Shown one piece after another: positions 8,794-27,943 of a stretch of DNA of 64,000 bases. The number at the start of each line of letters is the position of its first letter. Position 1 is the first letter of the stretch. The translations under genes were made by a program, and so were the position numbers. The notes under the pieces were generated by a model. The model saw nothing but the letters and a program-made list of their open reading frames with translations. It did not search any database and was not told the DNA's origin. Source of the stretch: Puia sp. (GTDB taxonomy: Bacteria; Bacteroidota; Bacteroidia; Chitinophagales; Chitinophagaceae); assembly GCA_031292515.1 (NCBI GenBank), contig JARLGZ010000030.1, forward strand, positions 186,001 through 250,000, given 5' to 3'.

Positions 8794-9423
8794 ATGAGGA
8801 AGGCGGTTGTCGTAGCATGGCTCATCGGTATTTTTTCTGTGATTGCTTGTCTTTTTTGGTATAATGAATGGGTGTACGCATTGCCCACACCTATCCCCGT
8901 CAACTATGTCGCCGTTAAACCGGGCGCGCTGATAGCTTTGCCGGCCGCCTTGCAATTTCCGGATGACCGGTTAAAGACAGGGAGCAAAAGACCTCTTCTC
9001 CTTCATTTTTTCAACCCGGACTGCCCCTGCTCCAGGTTCAACATACCTCAGTTCAAATCGCTGGTAAAACAATATTCGGACCGGGTGGATTTTGCCGTGG
9101 TGCTTTTGTCGTCAAAGGAGTATTCGCCCCAGCAGATCCGCAAGCGGTTTGGACTGGACCTGCCTGTGTTGTCCGATACGTCTGCCGCCGCCAAAGCAGC
9201 CATTGCCTGTGGCGTCTATTCCACCCCGCAGGCCGTCCTGCTGACAGGCGATCATGCTTTGTTCTACCGCGGTAATTATAACCGGAGCCGGTATTGTGCC
9301 GATCCCGCCACCAACTACGCGAGCCAGGCCCTGGAAGCGTTATTACATCAACAGCACGGCATCATATTCGATCCCCTGGCCCTCCGGTCGTATGGCTGCC
9401 GTTTACCCAATTGCAGTCAATGA
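8794..9423 (+). CDS. Membrane-anchored thioredoxin-like (DUF6436-type) protein
   Basis: A 209-residue protein with one N-terminal membrane helix (residues 4-24). A thioredoxin-fold domain follows: LLLHFFNPDCPCSRFNIPQF, then VDFAVVLLSS, GVYSTPQAVLLTG (the cis-proline loop, TP) and a C-terminal CRLPNC. The active-site region is C-P-C-S, a CxC rather than the classical CxxC, which fits DUF6436-type proteins as I recall them. The catalytic domain would sit in the periplasm. The stop codon overlaps the start of the histidine kinase gene, implying coupled translation. A redox-sensing or thiol-exchange role is an inference. Confidence 0.65.
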   Translation: MRKAVVVAWLIGIFSVIACLFWYNEWVYALPTPIPVNYVAVKPGALIALPAALQFPDDRLKTGSKRPLLLHFFNPDCPCSRFNIPQFKSLVKQYSDRVDFAVVLLSSKEYSPQQIRKRFGLDLPVLSDTSAAAKAAIACGVYSTPQAVLLTGDHALFYRGNYNRSRYCADPATNYASQALEALLHQQHGIIFDPLALRSYGCRLPNCSQ

Positions 9424-11702
9424 TGCCGAACCCGAAAAAAAATATGCCGACCCATTCTGTTCTGACCGGACCCGTTCTGACCGAATCTCATCTGCGCGAA
9501 TCGTTCCGGGTGGATGTCAAAAAACGATCCGATAAGTTGATGGATTACTTTCTGGCAGGGTTCTTTCTGACCGGGCTCGGCCTGGCTTTTTGCTACGATA
9601 CCTGGCTGATCGCTTTCGGTGTCGGTTCTCTCTCCCTGCTGGCGTACTATTCCGTAAAATGGATGCTGCCTGCATCTGATCTCTATCAGTATGTGCTGAG
9701 TGTGGTGCTGGCCATTTTTATGGCCCAGTATATCTACCAGATGCACGGGTTGTTCGAAATGCATTTTTTCGCCTTTATCGGCAGCGCGATCCTGATCACC
9801 TACCAAAAATGGAAATTGCAGATCCCGATGTTCCTGATCGTCGCCGCCCATCATGCCGGGTTCAATTATCTTCAGCGGATGGGGTATAATAACATCTATT
9901 TTACCCAATTGAATTTTCTGGACAACCAGACCTTCGTTATTCATATCCTGTTGACCGCCGTTATTTTTTATATCTGCGGGTTGTGGGCCTATCAGCTGAA
10001 TCTAAACGGCGAGGTCCAGGTCAGCCAGGCTGCGAAAATGGCAAAACTGCAGGAAGAAGCGGCGATCCTGCTGGAGCGTCAGCGAAATGAAGAGGTCCTT
10101 CGGCAGGCCTATTTGCAGGCAGAGAAAGGTCGCCGGGAGGCGGAGCAGGCGAACCAGGCCAAGAGCATCTTCCTGGCCACGATGAGCCATGAGATCAGGA
10201 CGCCGATGAACGGTGTCATCGGCATGGCTTCTTTGCTGGCGGAGACAGCTTTGTCCGATCAGCAAAAGATGTATACCCAGACGATCGCGACCTGTGGAGA
10301 AAGTCTGCTGAATGTGATCAACGATATCCTCGATTTTTCCAAGATCGAATCGGGGAGCATGGAGCTTGAAAAAGAAGATTTCGACCTGCGTACCTGTATC
10401 GAAGATGTGCTTGAAATATTCGGCACGCGGGCCGCCGAATCGGGGCTCGACCTCGTTTACCAGATCGATCCCGCGGTTCCTCTGCAGATCGTTGGCGACG
10501 ATCTGCGAATCCGGCAGGTGTTGACAAACCTGGTTGGGAACGCGATCAAATTTACCCGGGAGGGGGAGGTCTTTGTGGGGGTGAAAGCGGGCTCGCCGGC
10601 GACTGACGGCGGGTTTGAACTGGTCTTCGAAGTAAGGGACACAGGGATCGGCATTGCGGCCGACAAACTGGAAAGGTTGTTCAAGGCATTCTCCCAGGTA
10701 GACTCCTCCACGACCCGGAAATACGGGGGCACCGGTCTCGGGCTGGCCATCTCGGAAAAACTGGTGCGGTTGATGGACGGGAGGATCACCGTGGAAAGTA
10801 CTCCGGGGAAGGGTTCCGTGTTCTCGTTCACCATACAGACCCGGCGGGGCACAAAACTGCCGCAAACCCCGGCTACCTGCAATTTGTCCGACCACGAGGG
10901 CAAAAGGATCCTGGTGGTGGACGATAATGAAACGAACCGGACGATTCTGAAAAACCAGCTCGAATATTGGAAACTGGCACCCGTACTGGCGGCATCCGGC
11001 CAGGAAGCGCTGAACATCCTCTCCGTACAATCTCCCTTCGACCTGGTTTTATCGGATATGCAAATGCCGGGTATGGACGGCGCTCAATTGGCGGAAACGA
11101 TCCGCGGTCGCTATCCTCATCTTTCTGTTATCCTGCTTAGCTCGATCGGCGAAGAATATAGTAAGAAGGATTCCGGTCTTTTTAGCTCGGTGCTGACCAA
11201 ACCCATCAAACAGCATGTGCTCTGCAGACATATTCTTACGGGGCTTGAAAGACGCGGACCTGCCGCCGGGGAGGGCAGCCCCGCCCATAATAAGCTGCCA
11301 CCTGACCTGTCCCGAAAGTATCCTCTTAAAATACTTGTTGCAGAGGACAACCTGATTAATCAGCAGGTAATCGTCCATATCCTGCAAAAAATGGGATATG
11401 AACCGGAAGTCGCCGAAAACGGCCTTGAGGTGATGGAAGCGGCCGGACAACAGTCTTTCGACATTATTCTCATGGATTTGCAAATGCCGGAAATGGACGG
11501 TTTGGAGGCCACGAAGCTGATCCGTAAAAAGCCGGGGCGGCAGCCTGTCATTATCGCACTCACTGCCAATACGATGGAAGGGGATGAGAAGGAATGCTTG
11601 GATGCGGGGATGAACGACTATATCGGCAAGCCCGTGAGGCTGGAAGACATCGTCGCCAAACTGCAGAAGTGGGCCCTCCAGGGAATGCTCGACAAGGTCT
11701 AG
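9420..11702 (+). CDS. Hybrid sensor histidine kinase with two receiver domains
   Basis: A 760-residue kinase; the start at 9420 overlaps the previous stop (ATGA). Order of parts: five or so membrane helices at residues 40-195, a coiled coil at 200-245, and HisKA with MSHEIRTPMNGVIGM (phospho-acceptor His257). The ATPase domain shows NAIKFTREGEV, DTGIGI and GGTGLGLAIS. Receiver 1 has VDDNETN and DMQMPGMDG (Asp546). Receiver 2 has AEDNLINQ and DLQMPEMDG (Asp686). Both receivers keep their aspartates and conserved KP. There is no Hpt or DNA-binding domain, so a separate response regulator or relay protein is needed. The membrane module is not one I recognise. Confidence 0.9.
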   Translation: MMPNPKKNMPTHSVLTGPVLTESHLRESFRVDVKKRSDKLMDYFLAGFFLTGLGLAFCYDTWLIAFGVGSLSLLAYYSVKWMLPASDLYQYVLSVVLAIFMAQYIYQMHGLFEMHFFAFIGSAILITYQKWKLQIPMFLIVAAHHAGFNYLQRMGYNNIYFTQLNFLDNQTFVIHILLTAVIFYICGLWAYQLNLNGEVQVSQAAKMAKLQEEAAILLERQRNEEVLRQAYLQAEKGRREAEQANQAKSIFLATMSHEIRTPMNGVIGMASLLAETALSDQQKMYTQTIATCGESLLNVINDILDFSKIESGSMELEKEDFDLRTCIEDVLEIFGTRAAESGLDLVYQIDPAVPLQIVGDDLRIRQVLTNLVGNAIKFTREGEVFVGVKAGSPATDGGFELVFEVRDTGIGIAADKLERLFKAFSQVDSSTTRKYGGTGLGLAISEKLVRLMDGRITVESTPGKGSVFSFTIQTRRGTKLPQTPATCNLSDHEGKRILVVDDNETNRTILKNQLEYWKLAPVLAASGQEALNILSVQSPFDLVLSDMQMPGMDGAQLAETIRGRYPHLSVILLSSIGEEYSKKDSGLFSSVLTKPIKQHVLCRHILTGLERRGPAAGEGSPAHNKLPPDLSRKYPLKILVAEDNLINQQVIVHILQKMGYEPEVAENGLEVMEAAGQQSFDIILMDLQMPEMDGLEATKLIRKKPGRQPVIIALTANTMEGDEKECLDAGMNDYIGKPVRLEDIVAKLQKWALQGMLDKV

Positions 11703-11740: not shown

Positions 11741-13450
11741 ATGATCGCTTTTATCAGAAAGATACTGCAGGTTCTCACGCCCTCCGAGCGCGCGAAATTG
11801 GGCGTGCTGACCGGGTTGGACATACTCGTCAGCATAGCCGATATCGTTTTCCTGGTGCTGTTGCTATACATTGTCCAGTTTTATACCGGGTCTATCAGCC
11901 CCGGTAAGCTGTTTTTTCTTCCGGCTGTGCTTTCAGATCCTCATTCACTCTGGCCTATCGGGGTCGTATTCCTCCTTTTCTGCGCGAAAAATGCGGTCAG
12001 TTTTCGGGTCTATCAGGCTCAATGCAGGTTCCGGTTCGGTGTAGCGCTCCGGATCTCTGAAAACAATTTGCTGAGTTACCTGGAGGGGTCTTATCACGAA
12101 TACGTCAATACGGACTCTTCCGTACATGCCGGGTATATCAGTCAGCAACCGCTGGAATTCTCTCAGAACATCCTCGAGGCATTTCAGCAATGCATTTCTG
12201 AGACGACCCTTGTGAGCGTGTCGGTCGTTGCGGTACTCTTGTACAATGCGAAACTATTTCTATTGCTGCTGGCACTCCTCCTGCCTCCCGTTATTATCAT
12301 GGCATGGCTGATTCGAAGGAAACAACATTCGGCAAAATTGCAGATAAAAACGGGCCGGGAGATCATGTGGCAGCATGTTCACGAAGCGATCGCGGGTTTT
12401 GTGGAAAGCAATCTGTATGACAAGAAGCTGTTCTTTGCCAACCGGTATGCACGGTCTCAGGCCGCCTTAAGCGCGGACCTTGCTGTTCTCCGTAGCCTGC
12501 AGGGTGCGCCTTCCCGGGTTGCCGAGATCTTCGCCGTATTCGGGCTATTGGGGTTGATCGGTCTTAACCATTTTTCCGCGACCGGGCATGGCAGTCCTTT
12601 TGTCACATTGGGCGCTTTTCTGGCCGCTGCCTATAAGATCATCCCGGGTGTCGCCCGGATACTCAATATCGGCGGGCAAATGAGGACCTTCTCCTTTACC
12701 GTGGACGGTCTCGTCCGAAGAGAAGCCAGCGCGAAAATCATCCCGATCGGTTCTGCCGTTGCTTCTTCCGATGGCCGGTCTTCCGGGATCCATTCGCTCG
12801 CCTGCCGGGGTATCGATTTTCAGTACGGGCATCATCCGGTGTTGAAGGGTTTCTGCCTGAGCGTCCGCCGCGGCGATTTTCTCGGTATCCACGGCGGTTC
12901 GGGGAAAGGGAAAACAACGATCCTGCATATCCTGCTGGGTCTTCTCGAACCCGGCACCGGCGAAATCCTCTTTAATGACATCCCCTGCAATGCCCCTCAG
13001 ATCCGGAGGTATTGGAGACAGATCGCATATGTGAAACAGCAGCCGTTTATCATCAATGATACGGTCCTCGCCAATATCGTCCTGGACGAAGGGGACTATG
13101 ACCCGGGGAGGCTGCAGTCGGCCTTGTCTGTATCCGGTCTCGATGAATTCGTGGAAAGGTTACCCGACGGTATCCATAACCGGATCACGGAAAATGGAAA
13201 GAACATCAGCGGCGGGCAGCGCCAGCGAATCGCGATTGCAAGGGCTCTTTATAAAGGAGGGGATCTCATCCTCCTCGATGAGCCGTTCAGCGAGTTGGAT
13301 GAAGCCTCCGAAGAGCGGCTGCTTGCCCATTTCGGGCAGATGGCCCTCGAAGGGAAGGGGGTCATCCTGATCACCCACAATAAGAAAAGCCTGTCTTCCT
13401 GTAATAAGACTTTGACCCTGGATCAACGATACAATCCTCTTGCCGGATGA
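11741..13450 (+). CDS. ABC transporter, fused membrane and ATPase domains (PglK/MsbA-like)
   Basis: A 569-residue half-transporter. Residues 1-330 hold about six membrane helices, beginning LGVLTGLDILVSIADIVFLV as in PglK-type lipid-oligosaccharide flippases. Residues 350-560 are the ATPase: Walker A GGSGKGKTT, Q-loop YVKQQPF, signature NISGGQRQRIAIARAL, Walker B LILLDEPFSELDE and H-loop LITHNKKS. The frame is open further upstream, but the ATG at 11741 gives the expected N-terminus. Neighbouring glycosyltransferases suggest it flips or exports a lipid-linked glycan; this is inferred. It overlaps the next gene by four bases (ATGA). Confidence 0.85.
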   Translation: MIAFIRKILQVLTPSERAKLGVLTGLDILVSIADIVFLVLLLYIVQFYTGSISPGKLFFLPAVLSDPHSLWPIGVVFLLFCAKNAVSFRVYQAQCRFRFGVALRISENNLLSYLEGSYHEYVNTDSSVHAGYISQQPLEFSQNILEAFQQCISETTLVSVSVVAVLLYNAKLFLLLLALLLPPVIIMAWLIRRKQHSAKLQIKTGREIMWQHVHEAIAGFVESNLYDKKLFFANRYARSQAALSADLAVLRSLQGAPSRVAEIFAVFGLLGLIGLNHFSATGHGSPFVTLGAFLAAAYKIIPGVARILNIGGQMRTFSFTVDGLVRREASAKIIPIGSAVASSDGRSSGIHSLACRGIDFQYGHHPVLKGFCLSVRRGDFLGIHGGSGKGKTTILHILLGLLEPGTGEILFNDIPCNAPQIRRYWRQIAYVKQQPFIINDTVLANIVLDEGDYDPGRLQSALSVSGLDEFVERLPDGIHNRITENGKNISGGQRQRIAIARALYKGGDLILLDEPFSELDEASEERLLAHFGQMALEGKGVILITHNKKSLSSCNKTLTLDQRYNPLAG

Positions 13451-14532
13451 ACGATAAGAATAGATACGGTGTGCTGGTCATACTCAGCCCGGGATTTCCA
13501 GGGAGCGAGGCGGACAGCACGTGTATTCCTCCCCAGCAGGTCTTTGTCAGCCAGCTGAAAAAGGAATACCCCGCCCTCCCGATCCTTGTCATCGCTTTTC
13601 AATATCCGTTTGCGGCAACGGAATACAGTTGGAACGATGTCCGGGTAGTCAGCCTGGGCGGCCGGAACCGGGGGAAGCTTTACCGGGTGTTTATTTGGTA
13701 TAAGGCATGGCGACTGTTAAAGAAGGTTCGGAGGGAACAGGGGGTGAAGGGGCTTTTTAGTTTTTGGTGCGGGGAATGCGCGCTGGTCGGAAAATGGTTT
13801 GGGAGAAAATACGCGATCAAACACCACTGCTGGATATTGGGCCAGGATGCAAAGAAAGAAAACAATTATATAAAATGGATTCGTCCCATTGGCGGCGAAC
13901 TGGTCGCCCTATCCGATTTTATCGCCGGAGAATTTTTCAGGAATCACGGGATCCTGCCTGCCCGGATCATTCCCGTCGGGGTGGATCCAATGCTGTATGA
14001 TCAGGGGCCGGTCGAAAAAGACATCGACGTGTTAGGTGCGGGGGCTCTTATCCCGCTGAAAAATTATGAGCTGTTCCTGCACGCCATCTATTTCTGCAGA
14101 AAGCGATTGCCGGGTATTAAAGCCATTATTTGCGGGAAGGGGCCGGAAGAAAAGCGGCTTCGGGAGTTGATCGCGTTGTTGAAGCTGGAAGAAAATGTCT
14201 GCCTGGCGGGTGAAAGAGATCATGCCGGGGTCCTGAGGCTTATGCAACGCAGCCGGATATTTCTTCATCCTTCCACCTATGAAGGGTTCGGCGCTGTGTG
14301 TGTCGAGGCGTTGTACGCCGGCGCGAGGGTGATCAGTTTTGTAAAACCGATGGACGAGGATATTCCGGGCTGGCAAATTGTGGGAAGCTCCCGCGAGATG
14401 GTCCATGAGATCCTGGAGGCGTTGCAGGATCCCGAAAGGGAATGGCGGCCTTACCTGGCCTACTCCATACGCGATAGCGCAAGGGCGGTCATGAAACTAT
14501 TCGACGATGGAGACGGCCTTGTCGTCGGATAG
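13447..14532 (+). CDS. Glycosyltransferase family 4-like
   Basis: A 361-residue GT-B glycosyltransferase. The C-terminal half shows the group 1 pattern: VLGAGALIPLKNYELFLHAI, IICGKGPEEKRLRELIALL, VCLAGERDHAGVL and the E-x7-E nucleotide-sugar motif in HPSTYEGFGAVCVEAL. The N-terminal half (LVILSPGFPGSEADS) is the acceptor-binding domain. It is translationally coupled to the ABC transporter through an ATGA overlap. Its last 36 bases overlap the end of the next, opposite-strand glycosyltransferase gene. Donor and acceptor sugars cannot be read from the sequence. Confidence 0.82.
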   Translation: MNDKNRYGVLVILSPGFPGSEADSTCIPPQQVFVSQLKKEYPALPILVIAFQYPFAATEYSWNDVRVVSLGGRNRGKLYRVFIWYKAWRLLKKVRREQGVKGLFSFWCGECALVGKWFGRKYAIKHHCWILGQDAKKENNYIKWIRPIGGELVALSDFIAGEFFRNHGILPARIIPVGVDPMLYDQGPVEKDIDVLGAGALIPLKNYELFLHAIYFCRKRLPGIKAIICGKGPEEKRLRELIALLKLEENVCLAGERDHAGVLRLMQRSRIFLHPSTYEGFGAVCVEALYAGARVISFVKPMDEDIPGWQIVGSSREMVHEILEALQDPEREWRPYLAYSIRDSARAVMKLFDDGDGLVVG

Positions 14533-15636
14533 CGACTCGACGATCCGGTGAATGTGTCTGGCGATCGCTTCGAAGGACAGCTCCGATTGGAACTGGCGCA
14601 ATGTCTTTCTCCGTTCATTTTCCTGGTTTTTGAAAAGGGTCTTGAAAAGGGCAATCTGCAAGGCTATCTCATTGCCCGGCTCGTACAGGGCTCCGCAATC
14701 GCCGTCCGCGGTCATTTTGCGGAATGAAAGGATATCGGTCACAACCGGTATGCAGCCGCAGGACATGGCTTCGCAAACGGCCACGCCGCTGCCTTCATAG
14801 TGAGAGCCGGAGAGGATATAGTCCGATGCATTATACCAATGGATCATTTCTTCATGGGGTTTCCGGCCCACCAATACGACAGATCCCCGGTCCGCCCCAT
14901 CGGACCGGAGCAGTTCTTCGAGTTCACTGAGCAGTTCCCGCTCATGGTAGAGCATATATAACCGGGCATTCGGGAAGGATCTTGTGAACTTCAGGAAGGC
15001 TCTTACGACCGTGAGGGGATCTTTGTTGTAGTCGAGCCGGCCTACCCAGAGGAAAACAGGATGTCCGGTGACGCCAGTGACGTTCCTGGCCTGTATCTTG
15101 TCCGCCGGTCGGAATGACGATGAGGCTTCCATCACTTCGCGGATCTTTGTCCGTTTGCGGATGATGCCCTGCCTTACCCATTCCTCGCCCATTTCCCTGG
15201 CTGTGAAAAGATAGGCATCGATGCACCGGTCGGCCATTTTCTGCAGCCATTTCTTTGCCCCGGTTGCGGGTTTCTCGGCATGATTCTGAACGATGATTCT
15301 GGCCGAGCGGCCGAGCTGCACCCTGAGCTGCAGGACTTGCAGGGGGAAAAGGATCCCATGCACCACGACGATGTCCGGGTTGCAGTTTTTCACGTATCTG
15401 TGCAGCTGCCGGGGGAAGGTCAACTCTTTTTTCCCGAAATCCAGGAAATGATATTGGACGCCATTCTGCCGGAATATTCCCTGGTAGCGTATCTGCTCGA
15501 TGCTGATGACCGTATACCTTTCGCTCAGGGCCTCCAGGATACCCGTGTAGCCGCCGATGCGGTCGATCCATTGCTCAGGCTGGTCGAATTCGGGCGTATT
15601 GATGTAGCTTACAAAAACAATTGTCATACCGGTCAA
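14497..15636 (-). CDS. Glycosyltransferase family 4
   Basis: A 379-residue GT-B enzyme on the minus strand. Recognisable parts are VLWVGRLDYNKDPLTVVRAF-like sequence in the middle (here PVFLWVGRLDYNKDPLTVV), YMLYHERELLSELEELL, SVVLVGRKPHEEMIHWYNAS, and the E-x7-E motif in GSHYEGSGVAVCEAMSCGCI. It ends convergently with the neighbouring glycosyltransferase (36-base overlap). Its start overlaps the stop of the GNAT gene by four bases, so the three minus-strand genes (deacetylase, GNAT, this one) form an operon read leftward. Confidence 0.85.
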   Translation of the reverse strand: MTGMTIVFVSYINTPEFDQPEQWIDRIGGYTGILEALSERYTVISIEQIRYQGIFRQNGVQYHFLDFGKKELTFPRQLHRYVKNCNPDIVVVHGILFPLQVLQLRVQLGRSARIIVQNHAEKPATGAKKWLQKMADRCIDAYLFTAREMGEEWVRQGIIRKRTKIREVMEASSSFRPADKIQARNVTGVTGHPVFLWVGRLDYNKDPLTVVRAFLKFTRSFPNARLYMLYHERELLSELEELLRSDGADRGSVVLVGRKPHEEMIHWYNASDYILSGSHYEGSGVAVCEAMSCGCIPVVTDILSFRKMTADGDCGALYEPGNEIALQIALFKTLFKNQENERRKTLRQFQSELSFEAIARHIHRIVESLSDDKAVSIVE

Positions 15637-16610
15637 AAAATATCTATGTCCGCAAAAGTGAATTTCAATCTGTCAAAAGGGATCGTTGTTCCCAGGTCCT
15701 GGAATAAAACCGGGAAGGAAGCGATCGATGGGTAACGTGCGGCAAACAATCCATGCAAGAAAGTGCCCGGGCTGGTGTGGAAGGAAACCTGGCGCAGCCC
15801 CAATTTCGCCGCAATTTTTTTCAGGGAACGGAGGGTGGAATCGAAATGCTGTTCTTCCACGACGAGGTCGCCGATGACGAGTCCCGTTTTTATGGCGATC
15901 CAGGCCCTGGACCCGTCTATGCCGATTACGCTCGATTTGCCGTACCGTTTATAGTCAAAGTATCTTTCATCCCGGGAAAGGCCGCCATAGCCTTCATTTT
16001 TTGCCAGGTTGGGAATTCCCCGCAGCGGCAATGCATATTTTCTCAATACCCATTCTGCATAGCTCCGGTAAATATCCTTCAGCCAGCCGCCGAAGCGGTT
16101 CGAAAGCCCGTACCATGGAAATGACCGCACGGGCAGGAGGAAGCATCGCATGGTTTCCGTCGGGATCCAGCCCAGCCTGATAGCGCCGTGATAAGAGTGC
16201 TGGTTGGGGAACCCGAATAGAAATTTCACCCCGTTCTCCCGGCACAATGCAAAAGTGATTCGGGATAATTCCACGAACATCCCCTTGTACCGGTACCCGG
16301 GATGCGTCATGGTGTCACCGGATTGGGCCGCAAGGACGACCTGTGCCCGGTATTCCATGAAACAGGGTATGACTCCGTAGTAGGCCACTGCGATCCCCAG
16401 CCCGTTATACGCGAGATATCCGAGCCAGGATACGCCCGTATAGGCGGTGTCGTATTTTTTTGTGAAATAGTCCTGTGGGGACGAGATGCCATAGACTGCT
16501 TTGTGCAGCTCTTCAAGGTCTTTCAGTCCCCCGGTGGTTAGTCTCACGATACGGTATTCGGGTTCGCTGTCACCGGAAGGTGGGGGTTGGATCGGTTCGT
16601 TAGAAGGCAT
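15633..16610 (-). CDS. GNAT/FemAB-like N-acyltransferase
   Basis: A 325-residue protein resembling GNAT N-acetyltransferases found in Bacteroidota polysaccharide clusters. The acyl-CoA-type core is suggested by YLAYNGLGIAVAYYGVIPCF, VLAAQSGDTMTHPGYRYKGM and LFGFPNQHSYHGAIRLGW. The C-terminal half may be a second, degenerate GNAT domain, with an RLTTGGL start and ISFHTSPG-like strands near the end. It probably acylates an amino sugar or similar group, an inference from its place between a deacetylase and a glycosyltransferase. It overlaps both by 11 and 4 bases. Confidence 0.7.
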   Translation of the reverse strand: MPSNEPIQPPPSGDSEPEYRIVRLTTGGLKDLEELHKAVYGISSPQDYFTKKYDTAYTGVSWLGYLAYNGLGIAVAYYGVIPCFMEYRAQVVLAAQSGDTMTHPGYRYKGMFVELSRITFALCRENGVKFLFGFPNQHSYHGAIRLGWIPTETMRCFLLPVRSFPWYGLSNRFGGWLKDIYRSYAEWVLRKYALPLRGIPNLAKNEGYGGLSRDERYFDYKRYGKSSVIGIDGSRAWIAIKTGLVIGDLVVEEQHFDSTLRSLKKIAAKLGLRQVSFHTSPGTFLHGLFAARYPSIASFPVLFQDLGTTIPFDRLKFTFADIDIF

Positions 16611-20882: not shown

Positions 20883-21647
20883 ATGGAATTACCCGATTCT
20901 TCCATCCTGACCAACATACAGGTCCCGGGCTTTACAAGCCCCGGTGAAATCCTGTTCGAGAAAAAATATATACTTACCCGCAGCCTGGAGAACAGGTTGT
21001 ATACGGACGAGGAACTGATGAGGCTGCCCGAGGTGCCGGCCAGCCACACCCACTATAAGGAATGGCAGATCCGCAAACGGTCCTGCCGGCGTCTGTTACG
21101 CTACCTGGCTTCGGAGAACCGGGACCTGGAGATCCTCGAGATAGGCTGCGGGAACGGATGGCTCTCTCACCGGTTGGCGGAGTTGCCGGGTACGGAGGTC
21201 ACGGGTCTGGATATCAATTTCACGGAGTTGCAACAGGCTGCCAGGGTCTTCAGCGGCGATCCGAACCTGCATTTTATACATGGGGATATCCGATCGGGGA
21301 TATTGGGCGACCGGAGGTTCGATCGTATCGTCTTTGCCGCCTCGATCCAGTATTTCCCTTATTTGAAGAAGATCATCCATTTTGCGCTCTCCCAGTTGAA
21401 ACACGGAGGGGAGATCCATATCATGGATACGCATTTTTACCGGCCCGGGGAGGTCTCCATTGCCAAAAGGAGGACTGCGGCGTACTATTCATCCCTCGGC
21501 TACCCGGAAATGGCCGATTTCTATTTTCATCATTGCAGCAGCGATCTGAGGTCTTTCCACCAGCAGCAGTTGTATAACCCGATGGGGATACGCAGCCGGC
21601 TTTTAGGGGCCAGGGATCCTTTTCCGTGGATCCGGATTAAGAAATAA
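20883..21647 (+). CDS. Class I SAM-dependent methyltransferase
   Basis: A 254-residue methyltransferase with motif I LEILEIGCGNGWLSHRLAEL (residues about 81-100), the acidic post-II residue in VTGLDINFTELQQAA, the FIHGDIRSG strand, and IVFAASIQYFPYLKKIIHF as motif IV. Such proteins usually methylate small molecules or sugars. It starts 12 bases after the preceding radical SAM gene and ends 10 bases before the next, so it is embedded in the same transcript. Target unknown. Confidence 0.82.
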   Translation: MELPDSSILTNIQVPGFTSPGEILFEKKYILTRSLENRLYTDEELMRLPEVPASHTHYKEWQIRKRSCRRLLRYLASENRDLEILEIGCGNGWLSHRLAELPGTEVTGLDINFTELQQAARVFSGDPNLHFIHGDIRSGILGDRRFDRIVFAASIQYFPYLKKIIHFALSQLKHGGEIHIMDTHFYRPGEVSIAKRRTAAYYSSLGYPEMADFYFHHCSSDLRSFHQQQLYNPMGIRSRLLGARDPFPWIRIKK

Positions 21648-21657
21648 ACATTTGTCT

Positions 21658-22716
21658 ATGTCGGAAACTATGTCGGTAACGGGGCTTTTTCACCGGTTTC
21701 AGCGATTTCGCACCTTGCAGACGGACCGGATCACCGCCCTTCCCATTGTGATCCTGATGCCTCACAGCGCCTGTAATTGCAGATGCGTGATGTGCGATAT
21801 CTGGAAGGGGAACGCCCATCTTAAGCAATTGGTTCAGGACGATATAGAAGGGTTGCTGGACAGTCTCCGCAGGCTGGGTGCCCGGCAGGTTCTCATGTCG
21901 GGCGGAGAAGCCCTGTTAAACCCTTCTTTTTTTGATTTCTGTTCCATCCTGAAAAAGCAAGGTGTCAGGATCACGCTTCTTTCAACGGGTCTTACGCTTG
22001 CCAGGCATGCCATCCAGGTGGTGAAATGGGTGGATGAAGTGATCGTGTCGCTGGATGGCGATGAGCCGCTGCATGACAGTATCCGGAATATCCGCGGCGC
22101 TTTTCAAAAACTAGGGGATGGTGTTCGTCGTCTGCGCTTGATACGCCCATCCTTCCCTGTCACGGGCCGTACGGTCATCCACCGGCTCAATTTCAGGAAC
22201 TGGCGGGCCATCATCGAAGCCGCCGCGGAAATGGGGCTCGACCAGGTGAGCTTTTTGCCTGCGGACGTGAGCAGCCAGGCTTTTAATCGTTCCCGGCCCT
22301 GGGATGAACCGAGGCAGCACGAGATCCTTTTGGAGGAAAGCGATTTGCCGGCATTAAAAGCCATCATAGAAGGGATCATCAGGGATCGTCCTGATTATTT
22401 TGAAACGGGTTTTATCGCCGAATCTCCCGATAAGCTCAGGAAGATAGGTGCTTATTACGGCGCTTTTTATGGGCAGAACCCTTTCCCGTATAAGAAATGC
22501 AATGCACCCTGGGTGTCCACCGTCGTGGAAGCCGATGGTACGGTGCGGCCTTGCTTTTTCCATGCCCCATTGGGGAATATCAGGAAGGAACCGCTGTCGG
22601 CTATTCTGAACAGTGAGAAGGCCATCCGTTTCCGAAAGGACCTGGATATCGACAAAGATCCTATCTGCGCCCGTTGCGTTTGTTATCTGAACCTGCGGCC
22701 GGGTACAACGGTATAA
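21658..22716 (+). CDS. Radical SAM protein with SPASM-like C-terminus
   Basis: A 352-residue enzyme. The cluster motif CNCRCVMC gives CxxxCxxC at Cys39, Cys43 and Cys46, followed by DIWKGNAH, the GGEALLNP segment (GGE motif) and VIVSLDGDEPLHDSIRNIRG. The C-terminal part has cysteines in KKCNAPWVSTVVEADGTVRP plus CFF and ICARCVCYLN, consistent with an auxiliary iron-sulphur cluster of SPASM or twitch type. TTG at 21652 is open too, but the ATG at 21658 is preferred. SPASM enzymes modify peptides or carry out sugar and small-molecule chemistry; no precursor peptide is visible nearby. Confidence 0.83.
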   Translation: MSETMSVTGLFHRFQRFRTLQTDRITALPIVILMPHSACNCRCVMCDIWKGNAHLKQLVQDDIEGLLDSLRRLGARQVLMSGGEALLNPSFFDFCSILKKQGVRITLLSTGLTLARHAIQVVKWVDEVIVSLDGDEPLHDSIRNIRGAFQKLGDGVRRLRLIRPSFPVTGRTVIHRLNFRNWRAIIEAAAEMGLDQVSFLPADVSSQAFNRSRPWDEPRQHEILLEESDLPALKAIIEGIIRDRPDYFETGFIAESPDKLRKIGAYYGAFYGQNPFPYKKCNAPWVSTVVEADGTVRPCFFHAPLGNIRKEPLSAILNSEKAIRFRKDLDIDKDPICARCVCYLNLRPGTTV

Positions 22717-22762
22717 CCGGCCGGTGTCATGATTTGTTTGTCCGGGTGTTGCCGTTTAATCG

Positions 22763-22789
22763 ACCGGATGCCGGTTTAATATATTTTTT
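22763..22789 (+). terminator. Hairpin followed by a T-rich tract, possible terminator or attenuator
   Basis: ACCGG (22763-22767), loop ATG, CCGGT (22771-22775), then a tttaatatatttttt tract that runs up to the next start codon. It lies in the 73-base gap between two radical SAM genes. The stem is only five base pairs, so it may be a weak or partial terminator or an attenuator inside the transcript. Confidence 0.3.
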
Positions 22790-24277
22790 ATGGACACGAT
22801 CTTGTTTACCCATTCTTATTTTTTAAGATTCGACCCGAAACAGTGGCGGCTGGGGCAACCTTATCCCCCATTGGGGACGCTTTATGCGGCGGCCCTGATG
22901 CGTGAAAAAGGATTTCGGGTCGGGCTCTTCGACACTATGTTCGCCGAAAGTCCCGACGAGATACTGGAGGCCATCGAACACCATCATCCCCGTTGGCTGG
23001 TGATCTATGACGATGGATTCAACTACCTCACAAAGATGTGTCTCACCAATATGCGGGAGGCGGCTTTCCGGATGAGCCGGCTGGCGAAAGAGAAAGGCTG
23101 CCGGGTGGTGGTATCCAGCTCTGATTCGACCGATCACTTCGTGGAATACCTGGAGCAGGGAGCCGATTTCGTGGTGATCGGAGAAGGCGAACAGACTTTG
23201 CTGGAGTTGATCGGGAGGGACGGCGGCAGTCCGGGCCTACCTGGTCTGGCCTTCCTGCGGGATGGACTGCCGGTAAAGACAGGGGGGCGGGCCGTTATGA
23301 AGGACCTGGATGCGTTGCCGCTGCCGGCATGGGACCTGGTGGAGATGGAACGCTATCGCGCCACCTGGATGCGGCATGCGGGCTATTTCTCGCTTAATAT
23401 GAGTACGACGAGGGGCTGTCCTTTTAAATGCAATTGGTGTGCAAAGCCTATTTATGGCAACCGGTATCATGCCCGGTCGCCCGGGCAGGTGGTGAATGAG
23501 ATGAAATGGCTGAAAGAGCGGTATGCATTTCAGCATATCTGGTTCTGCGATGATATTTTCGGTCTGAAGCCGGGTTGGGTCTCCGAATTCGCGGACCTCC
23601 TGGAGCAGGAAGGCCTGCGGATCCCGTTTAAGATCCAGTCGAGGGCGGATCTGCTGTTACAGGAGGACTATGTCCGGGCACTTGCGCGTGCGGGATGCGA
23701 GAACAGTTGGATGGGAGCGGAAAGCGGTTCACAGCGCATTCTGGACGCCATGGACAAGGGCACGACGGTGGAGCAGATCGAAAAGGCTACCGGCCTGCTC
23801 AAGACGAATGGCATTCGTCCCTCCTTTTTTATCCAATTCGGTTACCCGGGCGAGACGAAGGAAGACATCCGCAAGACCCTCCGGATGATCAACGAGCTGT
23901 TGCCCGACGAGATCGGTATTTCGGTGTCTTATCCTTTGCCAGGTACCGTCTTCTATGAGAAGGTGAAGGCCGATCTTTCAAAGAAGGCCAACTGGACCGA
24001 TTCCGATGAACTGCAAATTATGTTCAGGAATACGTACGCGCCCCCGTTCTATAAGCAGTTGCATCGTTATGTGCACCTGTCCTATCGTCTCCATAAGGCG
24101 CTCCACTCTTTGAAGTCCCTGTTGCAAAAGCCCGGAGCCGTCAGTTGGTTGCACGTGCGCAAGGCCGTTTCTCTGGCCTGTCACACCCCGGCCCTGGTTT
24201 TTGCAAAATGGAAATTGGATCGTCTCGGGAGCCGATCGTCCGGGGCGGCGATAGATCTTATAACTCCACGACAATGA
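22790..24277 (+). CDS. B12-binding-domain radical SAM protein
   Basis: A 495-residue enzyme with the same architecture as the one starting at 19371. The N-terminal Rossmann-like domain includes LGQPYPPLGTLYAAALMREK, WLVIYDDGFNY and FVVIGEGEQTLLEL; GEGE is a common signature of this class. The cluster motif is RGCPFKCNWC (Cys210, Cys214, Cys217), followed by HIWFCDDIFGL and GAESGSQRILDAMDKGT. The C-terminal 120 residues are helical. It resembles proteins of the BchE/HpnJ/P-methylase superfamily in layout. Its stop overlaps the start of the following methyltransferase (ATGA). Confidence 0.83.
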   Translation: MDTILFTHSYFLRFDPKQWRLGQPYPPLGTLYAAALMREKGFRVGLFDTMFAESPDEILEAIEHHHPRWLVIYDDGFNYLTKMCLTNMREAAFRMSRLAKEKGCRVVVSSSDSTDHFVEYLEQGADFVVIGEGEQTLLELIGRDGGSPGLPGLAFLRDGLPVKTGGRAVMKDLDALPLPAWDLVEMERYRATWMRHAGYFSLNMSTTRGCPFKCNWCAKPIYGNRYHARSPGQVVNEMKWLKERYAFQHIWFCDDIFGLKPGWVSEFADLLEQEGLRIPFKIQSRADLLLQEDYVRALARAGCENSWMGAESGSQRILDAMDKGTTVEQIEKATGLLKTNGIRPSFFIQFGYPGETKEDIRKTLRMINELLPDEIGISVSYPLPGTVFYEKVKADLSKKANWTDSDELQIMFRNTYAPPFYKQLHRYVHLSYRLHKALHSLKSLLQKPGAVSWLHVRKAVSLACHTPALVFAKWKLDRLGSRSSGAAIDLITPRQ

Positions 24278-25224
24278 AAATGAATCACACCGGAATGCGT
24301 CCCATTGCCCCTTCTTTGGCGGAAAAAGAGAAGCCCGCGGCCGTTGCTTTCAGCGCACAGGCGCCTGGCTTCGATGCCTGTTACGCGCCCAATACCATCA
24401 TACAGTACAAGCGTGCCCGTGTGCGTGCCCACGTAGAGCAGTATCTGCCGGCGGAGAGCAATATCCTGGAATTAAATGCGGGGACGGGAGAAGACGCAAT
24501 CTATTTTGCGGGTAAGGGTCATAGGGTCCATGCTACGGACATTTCCGAAGGCATGTTGAAGAAGCTGGAAGAGAAGGTGGAAAGGGCGTCGGCCGCAGAA
24601 ACGCCTGACGGGGGTAGTACGGGATTAAGTAGTGTGGGATTAAGTAGTATGGGATTGAGTGGTATGGGATTGAAGGAGAGGATCACGCGGGAATTGTGCT
24701 CCTTTCATTCGTTGGACCGGCTTGCGGGAAGAGGACCTTATGACCTGGTCTTCTCCAATTTCGCGGGATTGAATTGTTCCGGCGAACTCGACAAGGTCTT
24801 GCGATCCTGTACGGGGCTGCTAAAGCCGGGGGGACTTCTTACTGTAGTCCTGCTGCCGCGGTTTTGTGCGCTCGAGACCTTATTGCTGTTTAAGGGGCAA
24901 TGGAAGACTGCCTTCCGGCGCTTCTGCGGCAGCAAAGGAACGCGTGCGCGTGTGGAAGGGCACTATTTCAGGTGCTGGTATTACAATCCATCCTATGTGA
25001 AAAAGGCGCTGAAGGATTCTTTTACGATGGTCGGTCTCGAAGGCCTGTGCACGATCGTGCCTCCGTCCTATATAGAGGGGTTCGCGGAGAAATATCCGCG
25101 GCTTTACCCGGTCCTGTGCAGATGGGAGGACCGGCTTAAATCCCGCCGGCCCTGGAAGGGAATGGGGGATTATTATATCATTACTTTCCGAAAGCGAACC
25201 GGTCCGCAGGAGGGGCGGCAGTAA
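24274..25224 (+). CDS. Class I SAM-dependent methyltransferase with internal repeat
   Basis: A 316-residue methyltransferase. Motif I is NILELNAGTGEDAIYFAGKG, with N in place of the usual G at position two (LNAGTG). The acidic residue is in VHATDISEGMLKKLE, and YDLVFSNFAGLNC is motif IV. Between motif I and motif IV lies a glycine/serine stretch made of a 15-base tandem repeat (four copies of a GLSS-type unit). The start at 24274 overlaps the previous stop; the frame is open further upstream inside the preceding gene. The last 44 bases overlap the end of the convergent nucleotidyltransferase gene. Confidence 0.78.
   Translation: MKMNHTGMRPIAPSLAEKEKPAAVAFSAQAPGFDACYAPNTIIQYKRARVRAHVEQYLPAESNILELNAGTGEDAIYFAGKGHRVHATDISEGMLKKLEEKVERASAAETPDGGSTGLSSVGLSSMGLSGMGLKERITRELCSFHSLDRLAGRGPYDLVFSNFAGLNCSGELDKVLRSCTGLLKPGGLLTVVLLPRFCALETLLLFKGQWKTAFRRFCGSKGTRARVEGHYFRCWYYNPSYVKKALKDSFTMVGLEGLCTIVPPSYIEGFAEKYPRLYPVLCRWEDRLKSRRPWKGMGDYYIITFRKRTGPQEGRQ
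24614..24673. repeat. In-frame 15-bp tandem repeat in a methyltransferase gene
   Basis: Four consecutive 15-base units: gtagtacgggattaa, gtagtgtgggattaa, gtagtatgggattga and gtggtatgggattga. They add five residues each (GLSS plus one) to a surface loop between the SAM-binding core strands of the methyltransferase. The unit keeps frame, so copy number can change without loss of the gene. Confidence 0.9.
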
Positions 25225-26368
25225 GATCAGGAACAGGAGAAGGCGTGTAACCAGGAACAGTGGATGGCGTGCAACCGGGAACAGGATTGGGTGTGAGCTC
25301 CGGCGTGGTACCGGGAACATGGGCATGGAGTGGCGGGTATGCAGGCCTGATGCCCAACTCTCTCAGTTTCTCCGAAAATCGTCTCATGATATTCCGCTGG
25401 AGAAACGCGGGATTCGGTTTTGCATAGTGTTTTCCAGTTTGCAGCGCCATGGGGAGACCTTTCATGTTGACTTTTTTTCCTTCTTCTTTTTTCTTCCATC
25501 GCCGGGAGGTGACCCGCAGGCAGTAGTCATCCAGCCGGTCTATCAGCGGGTGCGACAGGCAGGTCTCGAGGATTTTTTTCAGACGGCTGTCTTTTAACGC
25601 CAACGGCATGTCGTCTGTGCGGATCGGACCGGTTCCCGCTGCGGGTGTGTCGCTTCCTTCGCCGGAATTGTGGAACCGGATGCCGGGTATACCCTTGAAT
25701 GTGCCCGGTGTGGTTTGACCGGTCATGGATGTGTGGTTGCCTTTACCCGGCGTGCTATTCGGGTAGTAGGCGAGGGCCCAGTCGTTGGCAGAGAAGAGTT
25801 TGTCGATCGTTCCGTTCCCGCAAAAAGGCTTTAGCGTGACGAGTTCGATAGCGGTGAATTCGTTCTTCTCTTCTATCTCGATGGCTTTTTCATCGATATA
25901 ATAATTCATGCAATACCGGTGTTGCCGGCCGGTCAGGAAAGTCAGTTTTTTATACAGGTGCATCAGCGTACGGGCGATCCAAAGCCTTCCTGTATGGGTG
26001 ATGACAAAATAATCGATATCGGCATTTTCGTCTGCATAGTTCTTTGAAAGCGAGCCGGACACGCCGATGCCGCGTACGAAGGGGAACTGAAAAAGGAACC
26101 GGGCGTTCTTCGCGGCGATTGACAAAAGGATCCCGGCGCGGACGTTTCCCGTGAGTCTTTTTGTCATTAGGCTTCGATCGTCGCGCAAGGAGAATAAACC
26201 ATCATGTCTGTATATGCGCTTTTCTGCCACCAGGGATCCGAGGACCGCCGGTAAAGCGGATGGAGCTGTCCTGCTGTCGAGGAAGAAGAAGATTTCTTCC
26301 CCCGAGACAGGATAGTTGAACAGATCGAAATAGGCCAATACTTTGAGGATGCTGCTTTCCAATGGCAT
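25181..26368 (-). CDS. Nucleotidyltransferase-fold protein with Pro/Thr repeat tail
   Basis: A 395-residue protein. The N-terminal 75 residues look like a winged-helix segment (ILKVLAYFDLFNYPVSGEEI). A nucleotidyltransferase core follows: GVSGSLSKNYADENADIDYF fits the hG[GS]x9-13DhDh motif of the Pol-beta/MNT superfamily. The region after residue 200 is not recognised. The C-terminal 50 residues are a repeat tail (VPGYTPSP-like units) of the kind that can mark translocated or flexible extensions. It is convergent with the methyltransferase gene, with a 44-base overlap, and divergent from the sugar-transferase gene. Substrate unknown. Confidence 0.7.
   Translation of the reverse strand: MPLESSILKVLAYFDLFNYPVSGEEIFFFLDSRTAPSALPAVLGSLVAEKRIYRHDGLFSLRDDRSLMTKRLTGNVRAGILLSIAAKNARFLFQFPFVRGIGVSGSLSKNYADENADIDYFVITHTGRLWIARTLMHLYKKLTFLTGRQHRYCMNYYIDEKAIEIEEKNEFTAIELVTLKPFCGNGTIDKLFSANDWALAYYPNSTPGKGNHTSMTGQTTPGTFKGIPGIRFHNSGEGSDTPAAGTGPIRTDDMPLALKDSRLKKILETCLSHPLIDRLDDYCLRVTSRRWKKKEEGKKVNMKGLPMALQTGKHYAKPNPAFLQRNIMRRFSEKLRELGIRPAYPPLHAHVPGTTPELTPNPVPGCTPSTVPGYTPSPVPDLTAAPPADRFAFGK
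25229..25312. repeat. 24-bp coding repeat in the tail of the nucleotidyltransferase gene
   Basis: Two adjacent 24-base units (aggaacaggagaaggcgtg..., aggaacagtggatggcgtg...) and a longer 36-base relative, read on the minus strand as VPGYTPSP, VPGCTPST and VPGTTPELTPNP. The period is a multiple of three. It lies just beyond the stop of the convergent methyltransferase gene, so only one gene is affected by copy-number change. Confidence 0.8.
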
Positions 26369-26466
26369 GGGGTTGACTTTCTATTACGAACGCCGCCTTT
26401 TTGAAAAGAGTTGCCTGGCTGCCCGGGCAACTGCCTGCGCCGATCCTGCGTTCACATATAATCAAT

Positions 26467-27180
26467 ATGGATACAAGAGTAAGCGAAGTCTATCGGCGGG
26501 GAAGGCCTTTTTACTTCCTGATAAAAAGAGGTATCGATCTGGTCGTATCGTTTCTTGTCATTGTTTTTGTTTTGAGCTGGTTATTGCCGTGGCTGGCGAT
26601 ATTGATCATTTGTGAGTCAGGTCTGCCTGTATTCTTTTTACAGAAGAGGGTCGGCCGGTCGGGGAAGGTGTTCACCTGTTACAAACTCCGGACGATGGTG
26701 CTGAACGAGGACGCCGATACACGGGCCGCATCGGAATTTGACAGCCGCATTACGCGGCTGGGAAAATGGCTTCGCAAGACCAATCTCGATGAACTGCCGC
26801 AATTCTTCAATGTGTTCGGGGGATCGATGAGCCTGGTCGGTCCCCGGCCGCATATGATTGCGGATTGCAGGTTCTTTTCCTCCGTCGTTTCCTCTTATGA
26901 TTTCAGGAATCATGTCAGACCGGGCATCACGGGTCTCGCGCAGGTAAAAGGATTTCACGGGCCCGTAAAGGAGATCGGAAATGTTTTCAGGAGGTATCAG
27001 TGGGATGCATACTATGTGCGTCATGCCGGTTTCCTTATGGATCTGCGTATCATTCGAAGGACCTTTCTCGATTTTTTTCTCATCGCCCGACCCTTTATCT
27101 TTACGCGTACCTATGCGTATAAAAATACTGAGCCCGTTATGGGGGCACGAATACATGGAGATAAAGACCTTTATCAATAA
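26467..27180 (+). CDS. Initiating sugar-1-phosphate (phosphoglycosyl) transferase
   Basis: A 237-residue monotopic phosphoglycosyl transferase. It has one membrane-entry helix ([20 protein letters not shown]) and then the conserved core: [39 protein letters not shown] (with the catalytic Asp-Glu), [11 protein letters not shown] and [13 protein letters not shown]. It lacks the extra N-terminal helices of the WcaJ/WbaP type, so it is the short PglC-like form. It transfers a sugar phosphate to undecaprenyl phosphate and so starts a glycan. The ATG at 26467 is chosen because it fits the family start. It is the best evidence that the cluster makes a lipid-linked glycan. Confidence 0.88.
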
Positions 27181-27943
27181 GGTTAAGGAGGCTGGTTATG
27201 ACGGCGTGGATACCTGGATCCCGGAAGACCCTGTTATAAAGAGGGATCTGTTTGACGCCCTGCAACAGCATGAGCTGGTACTGGTCGCTCATCAGCACCA
27301 GGCGCATGGCGTCGATTTCGCAGCGTTTAAAGCGTCTTTTCTCGAATATCTGCATTTTAGCGCGCAGGGCGGTCCCGTGTTGATCAACTCACATACAGGG
27401 CGCGATTATTTCTCTTTTGCCCAAAATTTGGAGCTGGTCGATATAGCGTCAGGGTTCAGCGCCGCGACGGGCATCCCCGTCGTCCATGAGACACACCGGG
27501 GACGGATGGGGTATAGTCCCGGTCATTTGCAGGACTATTTCGATGCGAGGGCCGGCCTTCTTATCACGGCAGATCTTTCGCATTGGGTCTGCGTCACGGA
27601 AAGCCTGTTGGAGAATTTCGGATCTACGCTCGAACAGGCGATTATACGTACCCGTCATATTCATGCCCGGGTGGGATTCGAGGAAGGCCCGCAGGTCCCC
27701 GACCCGCGTGCGCCGGAGTGGAAGTATGCGGTGGATCGTTTTTTGTCCTGGTGGGACCGGATAATAGAACAACGCGTCCGCGCGGGGGATGCGCTGTTTA
27801 CGATCACTACTGAATTCGGCCCTCCGCCTTATCTGCCTACGCTTCCGTTCAGCAATCAGCCTGTTGCGGATCAGTTCGCCATAAACTCCTATATGAAAGA
27901 TCTCCTCAGCGCCAACTATCCGGATTATGTTCAGGCGGGTTAG
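27113..27943 (+). CDS. TIM-barrel sugar phosphate isomerase/epimerase-like protein
   Basis: A 276-residue protein of the xylose isomerase-like TIM-barrel superfamily. Likely metal ligands are the Glu in PVVHETHRGR, the Asp and His in LITADLSHWVC, the His in HIHARVGFEEG and the Glu in ITTEFGPPPYLP. The N-terminus [13 protein letters not shown] is the usual one for this group, so the start at 27113 is preferred even though it overlaps the preceding gene by 68 bases in another frame; the ATG at 27155 would cut the first strand. Substrate unknown. It ends convergently with the barrel gene. Confidence 0.8.
   Translation: MRIKILSPLWGHEYMEIKTFINKVKEAGYDGVDTWIPEDPVIKRDLFDALQQHELVLVAHQHQAHGVDFAAFKASFLEYLHFSAQGGPVLINSHTGRDYFSFAQNLELVDIASGFSAATGIPVVHETHRGRMGYSPGHLQDYFDARAGLLITADLSHWVCVTESLLENFGSTLEQAIIRTRHIHARVGFEEGPQVPDPRAPEWKYAVDRFLSWWDRIIEQRVRAGDALFTITTEFGPPPYLPTLPFSNQPVADQFAINSYMKDLLSANYPDYVQAG

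Follow-up and report, generated by a model that had tools for sequence, protein, structure and literature searches.

The best-known roles of B12-type radical S-adenosylmethionine (SAM) enzymes concern antibiotics, hopanoids, tetrapyrroles and peptides. Why, then, do two genes of this type lie among glycosyltransferase genes in a genome of Puia sp., and what could their products make there? The locus is part of a 64,000 nt stretch (assembly GCA_031292515.1, contig JARLGZ010000030.1, positions 186,001 to 250,000), called the window below, to which plain coordinates refer. A preliminary description, made from the letters alone, had assigned 8794–27943 to a putative surface-glycan cluster and had proposed that its product contains C-methylated or otherwise radically modified sugars. 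We find that the linkage of a nucleotidyltransferase (NTase) with one of the two B12-type radical SAM proteins (rSAM2), usually together with a methyltransferase (MT3), is conserved inside and outside the class of Bacteroidota to which the window belongs, and that the other B12-type protein (rSAM1), a radical SAM/SPASM protein and further methyltransferases (such as MT1 and MT2) are common additions. With a probability of about 0.55, the genes of 11741–27180 produce a surface glycan (or glycolipid) that is lipid-linked, and the conserved radical module among them makes a radically modified, methylated building block.

Conservation and linkage of the radical SAM genes

Homologues were sought in 244 genomes of the same family and in a phylum sample of 395 Bacteroidota genomes (genomes carry G-numbers, G000 being the one that holds the window; loci of relatives carry L-numbers). 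At a threshold of E ≤ 1e-40, rSAM1 (19371–20870, + strand) is present in 40 and rSAM2 (22790–24277, + strand) in 61 of the 244 family genomes; rSAM1, the deletion target proposed in the preliminary description, is thus the more dispensable of the two. Both occur together in 38 genomes, compared to an expectation of 10 (hypergeometric P = 5e-26). Each of these 38 genomes has the two genes on a single contig, 11 to 7727 bp apart. Only G112 and G148, which are 69% and 76% complete, have rSAM1 without rSAM2, absence being judged at the same threshold. The NTase (25181–26368, − strand; threshold E ≤ 1e-15) was detected in 64 family genomes, among them 60 of the 61 with rSAM2 (hypergeometric P = 5e-51); the sole exception, G183, is 63% complete. 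NTase and rSAM2 share a contig in 58 of these 60 genomes, with a median gap of about 1.2 kb and a largest gap of 11.5 kb. Both P-values ignore shared ancestry. The presence of two B12-type radical SAM genes in the cluster is no accident and exceeds what chance would produce.

In the phylum sample, rSAM2 was found in 27 and rSAM1 in 17 of the 395 genomes. All 17 are included in the 27 and, as read from the coordinates, the pair lies on one contig in 16 of them and on two in G523. Twenty distant loci were drawn from the phylum matches and mapped gene by gene, adjacency being counted manually. All 20 contain rSAM2, whose immediate upstream neighbour is a same-strand NTase gene in 18; in the remaining two, L199 and L217, the available sequence stops about 1 kb or less from rSAM2. 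The arrangement in the window differs, in that the NTase lies downstream of rSAM2 on the opposite strand. MT3 (24274–25224, + strand, PF13649) also has a match in each of the 20 loci and directly adjoins rSAM2 in 12; another gene separates the two in L204, L207, L210 and L211, and MT3 is several kb off in L198, L199, L205 and L206.

Among 120 relative loci, MT3 lies within 2.5 kb of rSAM2 in 115 and the NTase within 3.5 kb in 98; within 4 kb, the NTase was found in 91 of 109 distinct loci. Because the series L068–L107 and L108–L187 partly overlap (e.g., L069/L114 and L080/L173), the loci in tallies of 120 or 150 cannot be treated as independent. At the threshold of the 109-locus count, rSAM1 and rSAM2 cross-match, so that the rSAM1 figure there is void and the MT3 figure possibly inflated by other methyltransferases. 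The locus-level counts for the NTase are below the genome-level count partly because several stretches are short or the NTase is 5–9 kb away. A set of 80 named loci comprises the best 80 of at least 496 rSAM1 relatives, chosen by rSAM1 similarity and not at random; the records include Puia, Niastella, Pinibacter, Mucilaginibacter, Aureispira and many metagenome-assembled genomes. Downstream of rSAM1, in the 64 named loci with at least 8 kb on that side, rSAM2 was found 60 times, MT3 59, the SPASM protein 54, the NTase 50, MT2 39 and MT1 15 times; upstream, MT1 occurs in 3 of the 63 loci with at least 8 kb there. Compared with the proteins encoded in the window, the relatives have a median identity of 70.8% for rSAM1, a value favoured by the selection of the loci more than those of the other proteins, 65.5% for rSAM2, 61.8% for the SPASM protein, 50–54% for the methyltransferases, 43–53% for the two family 4 glycosyltransferases (GT4a and GT4b), the ATP-binding cassette (ABC) exporter, the sugar transferase and the deacetylase, and 39% for the NTase.

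NTase and rSAM2 are the tightest pair and MT3 is the usual third member, because the NTase is directly upstream in 18 of 20 distant loci, compared to 12 of 20 for an adjoining MT3, which is nevertheless close by in 115 of 120 loci. In L209 (9741–11924), rSAM2 and MT3 are fused: a single 727-aa frame combines a relative of rSAM2 (57%) with one of MT3 (31%), and its first approximately 475 residues match B12 radical SAM models. Other single-frame fusions join GT4a with a methyltransferase (L112), MT1 with MT2 (L086), and a Wzy-like protein with the sugar transferase (L188), each being a single case. The NTase-rSAM2 pair and the rSAM2-MT3 fusion point to the enzymes of first interest.

Predicted activities of the radical SAM proteins and the NTase

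Gene families were assigned by a listing of open reading frames (ORFs) and by profile scans with Pfam and NCBIfam, start codons and overlaps being checked separately. rSAM1 and rSAM2 both score over the cut-off of 32.1 bits for an N-terminal B12-binding domain (PF02310; 34.7 and 37.7 bits, respectively) and over that of the radical SAM domain (PF04055). The cysteines of the CxxxCxxC motif are invariant in both (C200, C204 and C207 in 20 sequences of rSAM1; 210, 214 and 217 in 23 sequences of rSAM2). The genome uses cobalamin, as seen from a B12-dependent MetH that scores over its cut-off. Nevertheless, a B12-type domain alone does not prove B12 use, as is illustrated by AprD4, the closest sequence in the PDB, which reportedly does not need B12.

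Which reaction the two proteins catalyze is less easily predicted. rSAM1 is below the cut-off of all 22 NCBIfam models listed for it, and rSAM2 below those of the best 25 of 33. The nearest models are HpnJ (TIGR03471, cut-off 577.6; 111.0 bits) and PhpK for rSAM1, and BchE (TIGR02026, cut-off 481.35; 141.0 bits) and HpnJ (131.8 bits) for rSAM2. rSAM1 reaches 90.4 bits with the BchE model; with the AprD4 family (NF033070, cut-off 500), rSAM1 and rSAM2 reach 39.3 and 85.2 bits, and with B12_rSAM_oligo (TIGR04295, cut-off 400) 33.6 and 88.4 bits. The best PDB match of each is AprD4, in a structure with paromamine. A Foldseek search with the predicted model of rSAM2 (mean predicted local distance difference test score, pLDDT, 80.0) returned methylases and non-methylases side by side (MgmA, TsrM, AprD4, OxsB, CysS and TokK). 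Ranked by E-value, the methylases MgmA and TsrM come first; the highest target TM-score among the 50 matches listed (0.67–0.68) belongs to AprD4. Members listed as non-methylating in a section of a preprint are OxsB, HpnJ, PbsB, BchE and ladderane synthase (PMC13142503). In the comparison with characterized methylases that the preliminary description had proposed, the E-value ranking speaks for methylation and the presence of non-methylases among the nearest matches against it. C-methylation would be only one option, given that the nearest families and folds include the non-methylating BchE, HpnJ, AprD4 and OxsB.

Further proteins of this kind occur in relatives and in the same genome. In several copies (L155, L164, L162, L185 and others), the gene after a diverged MT3 encodes a third paralogue of the B12 radical SAM type, rSAM2b, at about 35% to rSAM2; in the Puia genome, no second rSAM2 match was found at E 1e-40. 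At a contig end of that genome (G000:C5:47–337, L006) lies another B12-binding radical SAM-like protein, which is, by eye, unlike rSAM1 and rSAM2.

The NTase has no Pfam or NCBIfam match in the profile scans. It contains a GS...DxD motif (S104–K109 and the putative catalytic aspartates D117 and D119 invariant in 28 sequences), which we take to be the active-site motif of DNA polymerase beta-type (pol-beta; MNT/ANT-like) nucleotidyltransferases. The predicted model (pLDDT 80.7) consists of a winged helix and a pol-beta domain, and Foldseek places MntA and aminoglycoside nucleotidyltransferases on top, albeit weakly (best E 2e-3; TM-scores low, 0.21/0.53, with a query of 395 aa whose tail is disordered). 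Because of the motif and the model, the NTase is likely a nucleotidyltransferase of the pol-beta type by predicted activity, in agreement with its earlier annotation as a nucleotidyltransferase, for which profile matches are lacking.

Comparison with known systems

With the class 1 cobalamin-dependent radical SAM enzymes (BchE, HpnJ, MgmA, TsrM, OxsB and Fom3), rSAM1 and rSAM2 share the N-terminal B12 domain, the radical SAM core and the CxxxCxxC motif. Unlike these enzymes in their known settings, they sit among NTase, MT3 and glycan genes and score below the listed NCBIfam cut-offs. The HpnI-HpnK-HpnJ path to bacteriohopanetetrol cyclitol ether resembles the cluster in combining a glycosyltransferase, a deacetylase and a B12 radical SAM protein, and HpnJ is the best model of rSAM1, although its score of 111 bits is far below 577.6. 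According to a passage in PMC12583986, the glycosyltransferase acts first in that path, followed by the deacetylase and then by HpnJ on an aminosugar. The hopene cyclase model TIGR01507 has no match in the Puia genome, a negative of partly proven sensitivity, as 2 of 14 control genomes matched and none over the cut-off. The deacetylase of the cluster presumably belongs to another family than that of the hopanoid path. Hopanoid modification, which the preliminary description had named as a possible refutation of its reading, was therefore rejected as the role of the cluster, given the missing hopene cyclase match and the HpnJ score far under the cut-off.

AprD4, which performs a radical 1,2-diol dehydration of an aminosugar in apramycin biosynthesis, also acts on a sugar and is the best PDB match of both proteins, but the scores with its own family model are far from 500. 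In fosfomycin biosynthesis, Fom3 methylates a cytidylylated substrate, as stated in an excerpt of PMC8158854. The likeness of Fom1 and Fom3 to the module is one of logic only, that is, a nucleotide-tagged substrate that is passed to a B12 radical SAM methylase. The Fom1 nucleotidyltransferase has, we assume, another fold than the NTase.

The cluster shares with PglC/PglK-type and with Wzx/Wzy or ABC-flippase clusters a PF02397 sugar transferase, GT4 and GT2 glycosyltransferases and an ABC exporter, and a Wzy is encoded both by some relatives and at another site of the Puia genome. It differs from them in that no Wzy, Wza or Wzc is found among the genes of 11741–27180 and in that the PglK and WcaJ scores are too low (ABC exporter, 153.7 bits with NF050066, cut-off 1000; sugar transferase, 236.9 of 410.75 bits, aligned to the C-terminal half of the WcaJ model only). 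A Pgl system was rejected because of these scores, and so was a PEP-CTERM/XrtA system (TIGR03013, 158.6 of 393.35 bits; TIGR03006, 21.8 of 276.2 bits). Modified-sugar clusters linked to CA_C2195 keep a nucleotidyltransferase, a sugar methylase, an epimerase, an acetyltransferase and a glycosyltransferase in several phyla (PMC4000134, main text). Compared by description, they differ in that their nucleotidyltransferase is a sugar-phosphate one; the term radical SAM is absent from the main text of that paper. The preliminary description knew of no system with this gene set, and in the open-access literature, to which our search was confined and which leaves out most subscription papers, we also found no description of the cluster. 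What appears to be new is the combination of parts that are individually of known kinds, together with the phylum-wide NTase-rSAM2-MT3 module.

A putative surface-glycan building block with a radical modification

The gene content around the core varies between loci. Upstream of rSAM1 in the 63 named loci, GT4a (47), GT4b (43), the ABC exporter (42), an amidohydrolase (42) and its methyltransferase (41) are common, and the deacetylase (13), GT2 (13) and the GNAT protein (12) less so. In 93 of the 109 distinct loci, at least one glycosyltransferase query has a match no more than 9 kb away from rSAM2. An unbiased clustering of ORFs of at least 90 aa across the 120 relative loci added the amidohydrolase (67 loci), a further methyltransferase (65), a rhamnosyltransferase-like glycosyltransferase (46) and a Wzy-like family (46, with PF04932 just over the cut-off in relatives), as well as other glycosyltransferases and, by eye, a Wzz-like protein. 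The distant copies L143, L162, L168, L181 and L185 carry a GT87 glycosyltransferase (tested for L143 and L181) and a membrane protein that is Wzx-like by eye and has no Pfam match; some of them additionally encode a protein resembling amine oxidase/UDP-galactopyranose mutase, plus one more SPASM radical SAM protein (tested for L162). In the Puia genome, a 56% relative of the rhamnosyltransferase-like protein lies beside a Wzy (PF04932 over cut-off) on contig C205, which looks like a separate polysaccharide cluster. The amidohydrolase, presumably of the metal-binding kind in view of its conserved histidines and aspartate, was found in 25 of the 244 genomes, 24 of which have rSAM2 (in G214 it is on another contig than the module). 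As it has no match in the Puia genome, it was rejected as a part of the pathway there and is a feature of relatives only. A conserved lipoprotein-like ORF family (c26) was also seen near rSAM1 in distant copies; its member in L162 (7395–8573) has a CxxCH motif and no Pfam match.

In the proposed mechanism, the sugar transferase would start the chain on an undecaprenyl carrier, the GT4 and GT2 enzymes would extend it and the ABC exporter would flip the product, which a Wzy polymerase encoded elsewhere in the genome may then polymerize. The radical module would make or finish one special residue. Most likely as the first step, the NTase would put a nucleotide on a small substrate; this putative tagging is the least certain step, and we regard it as doubtful. 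rSAM2 would then attack an unactivated carbon of the tagged substrate in a B12-assisted radical reaction, either C-methylation or a change of the ring or skeleton, and MT3 would methylate that molecule in the conventional way. A second and a third radical step would fall to rSAM1 and the SPASM protein. It is reasonably probable that a surface glycan is supplied in this way with a radically modified building block. A bolder proposal, which we make tentatively and consider somewhat unlikely, is a Bacteroidota-wide pathway in which the pol-beta NTase tags a sugar or cyclitol and the B12 radical SAM protein and its partner methyltransferase remake the carbon skeleton to a new carbon-branched or carbocyclic surface-glycan residue, with rSAM1, the SPASM protein and the amidohydrolase as diversifying add-ons. 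Of the earlier reading, a part that stands is that radical SAM and methyltransferase genes are conserved in a glycan-type cluster of relatives such as Puia, Niastella and Mucilaginibacter; C-methylation is a candidate chemistry only, the best-scoring families including non-methylating enzymes, and the sugar substrate is putative. Radical carbon chemistry would reach surface polysaccharides with a conserved module of this composition, which includes several methyltransferases and a nucleotidyltransferase outside all Pfam and NCBIfam models and which common environmental bacteria mostly have within their surface-glycan clusters; a new sugar would become accessible by a tractable route.

Several observations weigh against a surface-glycan building block. 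The sugar transferase, counted up to 10 kb downstream as was Wzy, is near rSAM1 in a minority of the named loci (16/64 downstream, 8/63 upstream), and the Wzy query matched in 1 of 64, although ORF clustering saw the Wzy-like family in 46 of the 120 partly redundant loci. No glycosyltransferase query matched within 9 kb of rSAM2 in 16 of the 109 distinct loci, and recognizable glycan genes are scarce or absent around the NTase, rSAM2 and MT3 of the distant loci L208, L209, L210, L212 and L213. Because of these bare modules and the 16 loci, the module may make a building block or small molecule that is independent of a glycan. The match of the NTase to the pol-beta fold is weak, the MNT/ANT type is presumably not the fold that usually makes nucleoside diphosphate sugars, and the winged helix could mean that the NTase is a regulator. 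Furthermore, 4 of the 64 NTase genomes in the family (G050, G079, G200 and G240) lack rSAM2 at E ≤ 1e-40, suggesting that the NTase can work without it. Their loci (L188–L191) contain the NTase, a methyltransferase and an NAD epimerase (assigned by PF01370 in L188 and L189 and by eye in the other two), three of them a GT2 (tested for L189), and also Wzy-, Wzx- or Wzz-like genes, mostly by eye. In L188, the NTase, the sugar transferase, a Wzy-like gene and two GT4 genes are kept, no radical SAM gene was recognized, and the NAD-dependent epimerase adjoins the NTase. The absence of the radical SAM genes from otherwise conserved copies, named beforehand as a refutation, is therefore seen only in part. 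An epimerase in the place of rSAM2 hints that both alter a sugar-like substrate. In L189 and L191, the NTase-epimerase-methyltransferase-GT2 block without radical SAM gene is found, by eye, near an IscS/IscU-like iron-sulfur assembly pair.

The bare modules raise the question whether the product of the module and of rSAM1 is instead a free small molecule, or their target a lipid or headgroup. In that case, the adjacent glycan genes in Chitinophagaceae-type genomes would have joined later to use or export the product. The amidohydrolase, nearly always found in rSAM2 genomes, would fit this, as would the lipid-acting HpnJ and a ladderane-type protein among the nearest NCBIfam models and the deaminase that adjoins the module in L208 and L213. 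Yet glycosyltransferase genes lie near most copies, including the distant relatives with GT87, and the scores with the lipid models are far under their cut-offs; we consider this explanation rather improbable. The deaminase is a dCMP/cytidine-deaminase-like gene (L208:8238–8789; L213:8118–8840) beside the bare module in two distant lineages; its domain was tested for L208 only, and a membrane-type N-terminus was noted by eye.

The type of radical step is a separate question, and a change of skeleton (ring contraction, dehydration or C–C bond formation, as in HpnJ, OxsB and AprD4), for example on an aminosugar freed by the deacetylase, would be compatible with a surface-glycan building block. 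It is a serious possibility, if somewhat short of even odds: HpnJ is the best model of rSAM1, BchE and HpnJ are the best of rSAM2, AprD4 leads in PDB sequence and target TM-score, a deacetylase precedes HpnJ in the hopanoid path as outlined in PMC12583986, and an NAD epimerase is beside the NTase where rSAM2 is missing. These points are offset by the first rank of the methylases MgmA and TsrM by E-value, by scores that are all under the cut-offs and by a deacetylase in only 13 of the 63 named loci. Far less probable is a role of the radical SAM genes as maturases of a ribosomally synthesized and post-translationally modified peptide with an unnoticed precursor. The SPASM protein does have a peptide-maturase model as its best match (TIGR03913, 70.4 of 591.75 bits) and an ABC exporter is present, but the intergenic gaps in 17668–25224 are at most 78 bp, leaving little space for a precursor gene, and no recurring precursor-like family was noticed among the ORFs of at least 90 aa in relatives, a search that covered neither shorter ORFs nor leader peptidases. 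Co-location by chance or local hitch-hiking, for which the considerable variation around NTase and rSAM2 could be cited, has a negligible probability in view of the co-occurrence values for the 244 genomes and of the linkage outside the class of the window.

Extent and gene content of the cluster

The true cluster is 11741–27180. Because they have no matches across 150 relative loci, the genes at the edges of the span proposed earlier are taken as non-members: homologues of the thioredoxin-like protein (8794–9423) and of the TIM-barrel protein (27113–27943) were found in 0 of the 150 loci (a partly redundant set), as were those of the hybrid histidine kinase (9294–11702), for which the N-terminal part only was searched. 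The whole kinase matches generic kinases with about 30% identity in L147 and L212.

All gene classes named in the preliminary description were found. The cluster begins on the + strand with an ABC exporter (11741–13450, PF00005), a PglK/MsbA-like fused permease-ATPase and the probable flippase of the lipid-linked product, and GT4a (13447–14532, PF00534). GT4b (14497–15636, PF00534) and two accessory genes, for a GNAT-type acetyltransferase (15633–16610, PF13527) and a polysaccharide deacetylase (16600–17592, PF01522), follow on the − strand. The + strand then carries GT2 (17668–18540, PF00535; its start is uncertain, GTG 17668 being one of several in-frame starts), the class I methyltransferase MT1 (18619–19338, PF05175), rSAM1, the class I methyltransferase MT2 (20883–21647, PF13649), the radical SAM/SPASM protein (21652–22716, PF04055 and PF13186, with an alternative ATG at 21658), rSAM2 and MT3, also of class I. 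After the NTase on the − strand, the cluster ends with the short, PglC-sized initiating phosphoglycosyl transferase on the + strand (26467–27180, ATG at 26467; PF02397, 188.8 bits, cut-off 27). Of the several four-base overlaps described before, three were found (13447/13450, 15633/15636 and 24274/24277); a fourth, 19335/19338, exists only with a GTG start of rSAM1.

The 18 kb upstream of the window (L222) contain no match to the cluster query set. Within the window, an upstream block (4550–8623) encodes an outer membrane protein barrel, a tRNA_anti-like protein, a 141-aa protein, a YceI protein and a DUF5777 barrel. YceI homologues occur in 14 and DUF5777 homologues in 13 of the 150 partly redundant loci, in several lineages, and the block is perhaps a second linked module. 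On the other side of the cluster, an alpha-L-rhamnosidase-type protein (31840–34290; PF17389, PF08531) is encoded next to a PhyH dioxygenase (31035–31850), an AraC regulator (29946–30968) and a DapA-like protein (28810–29877).

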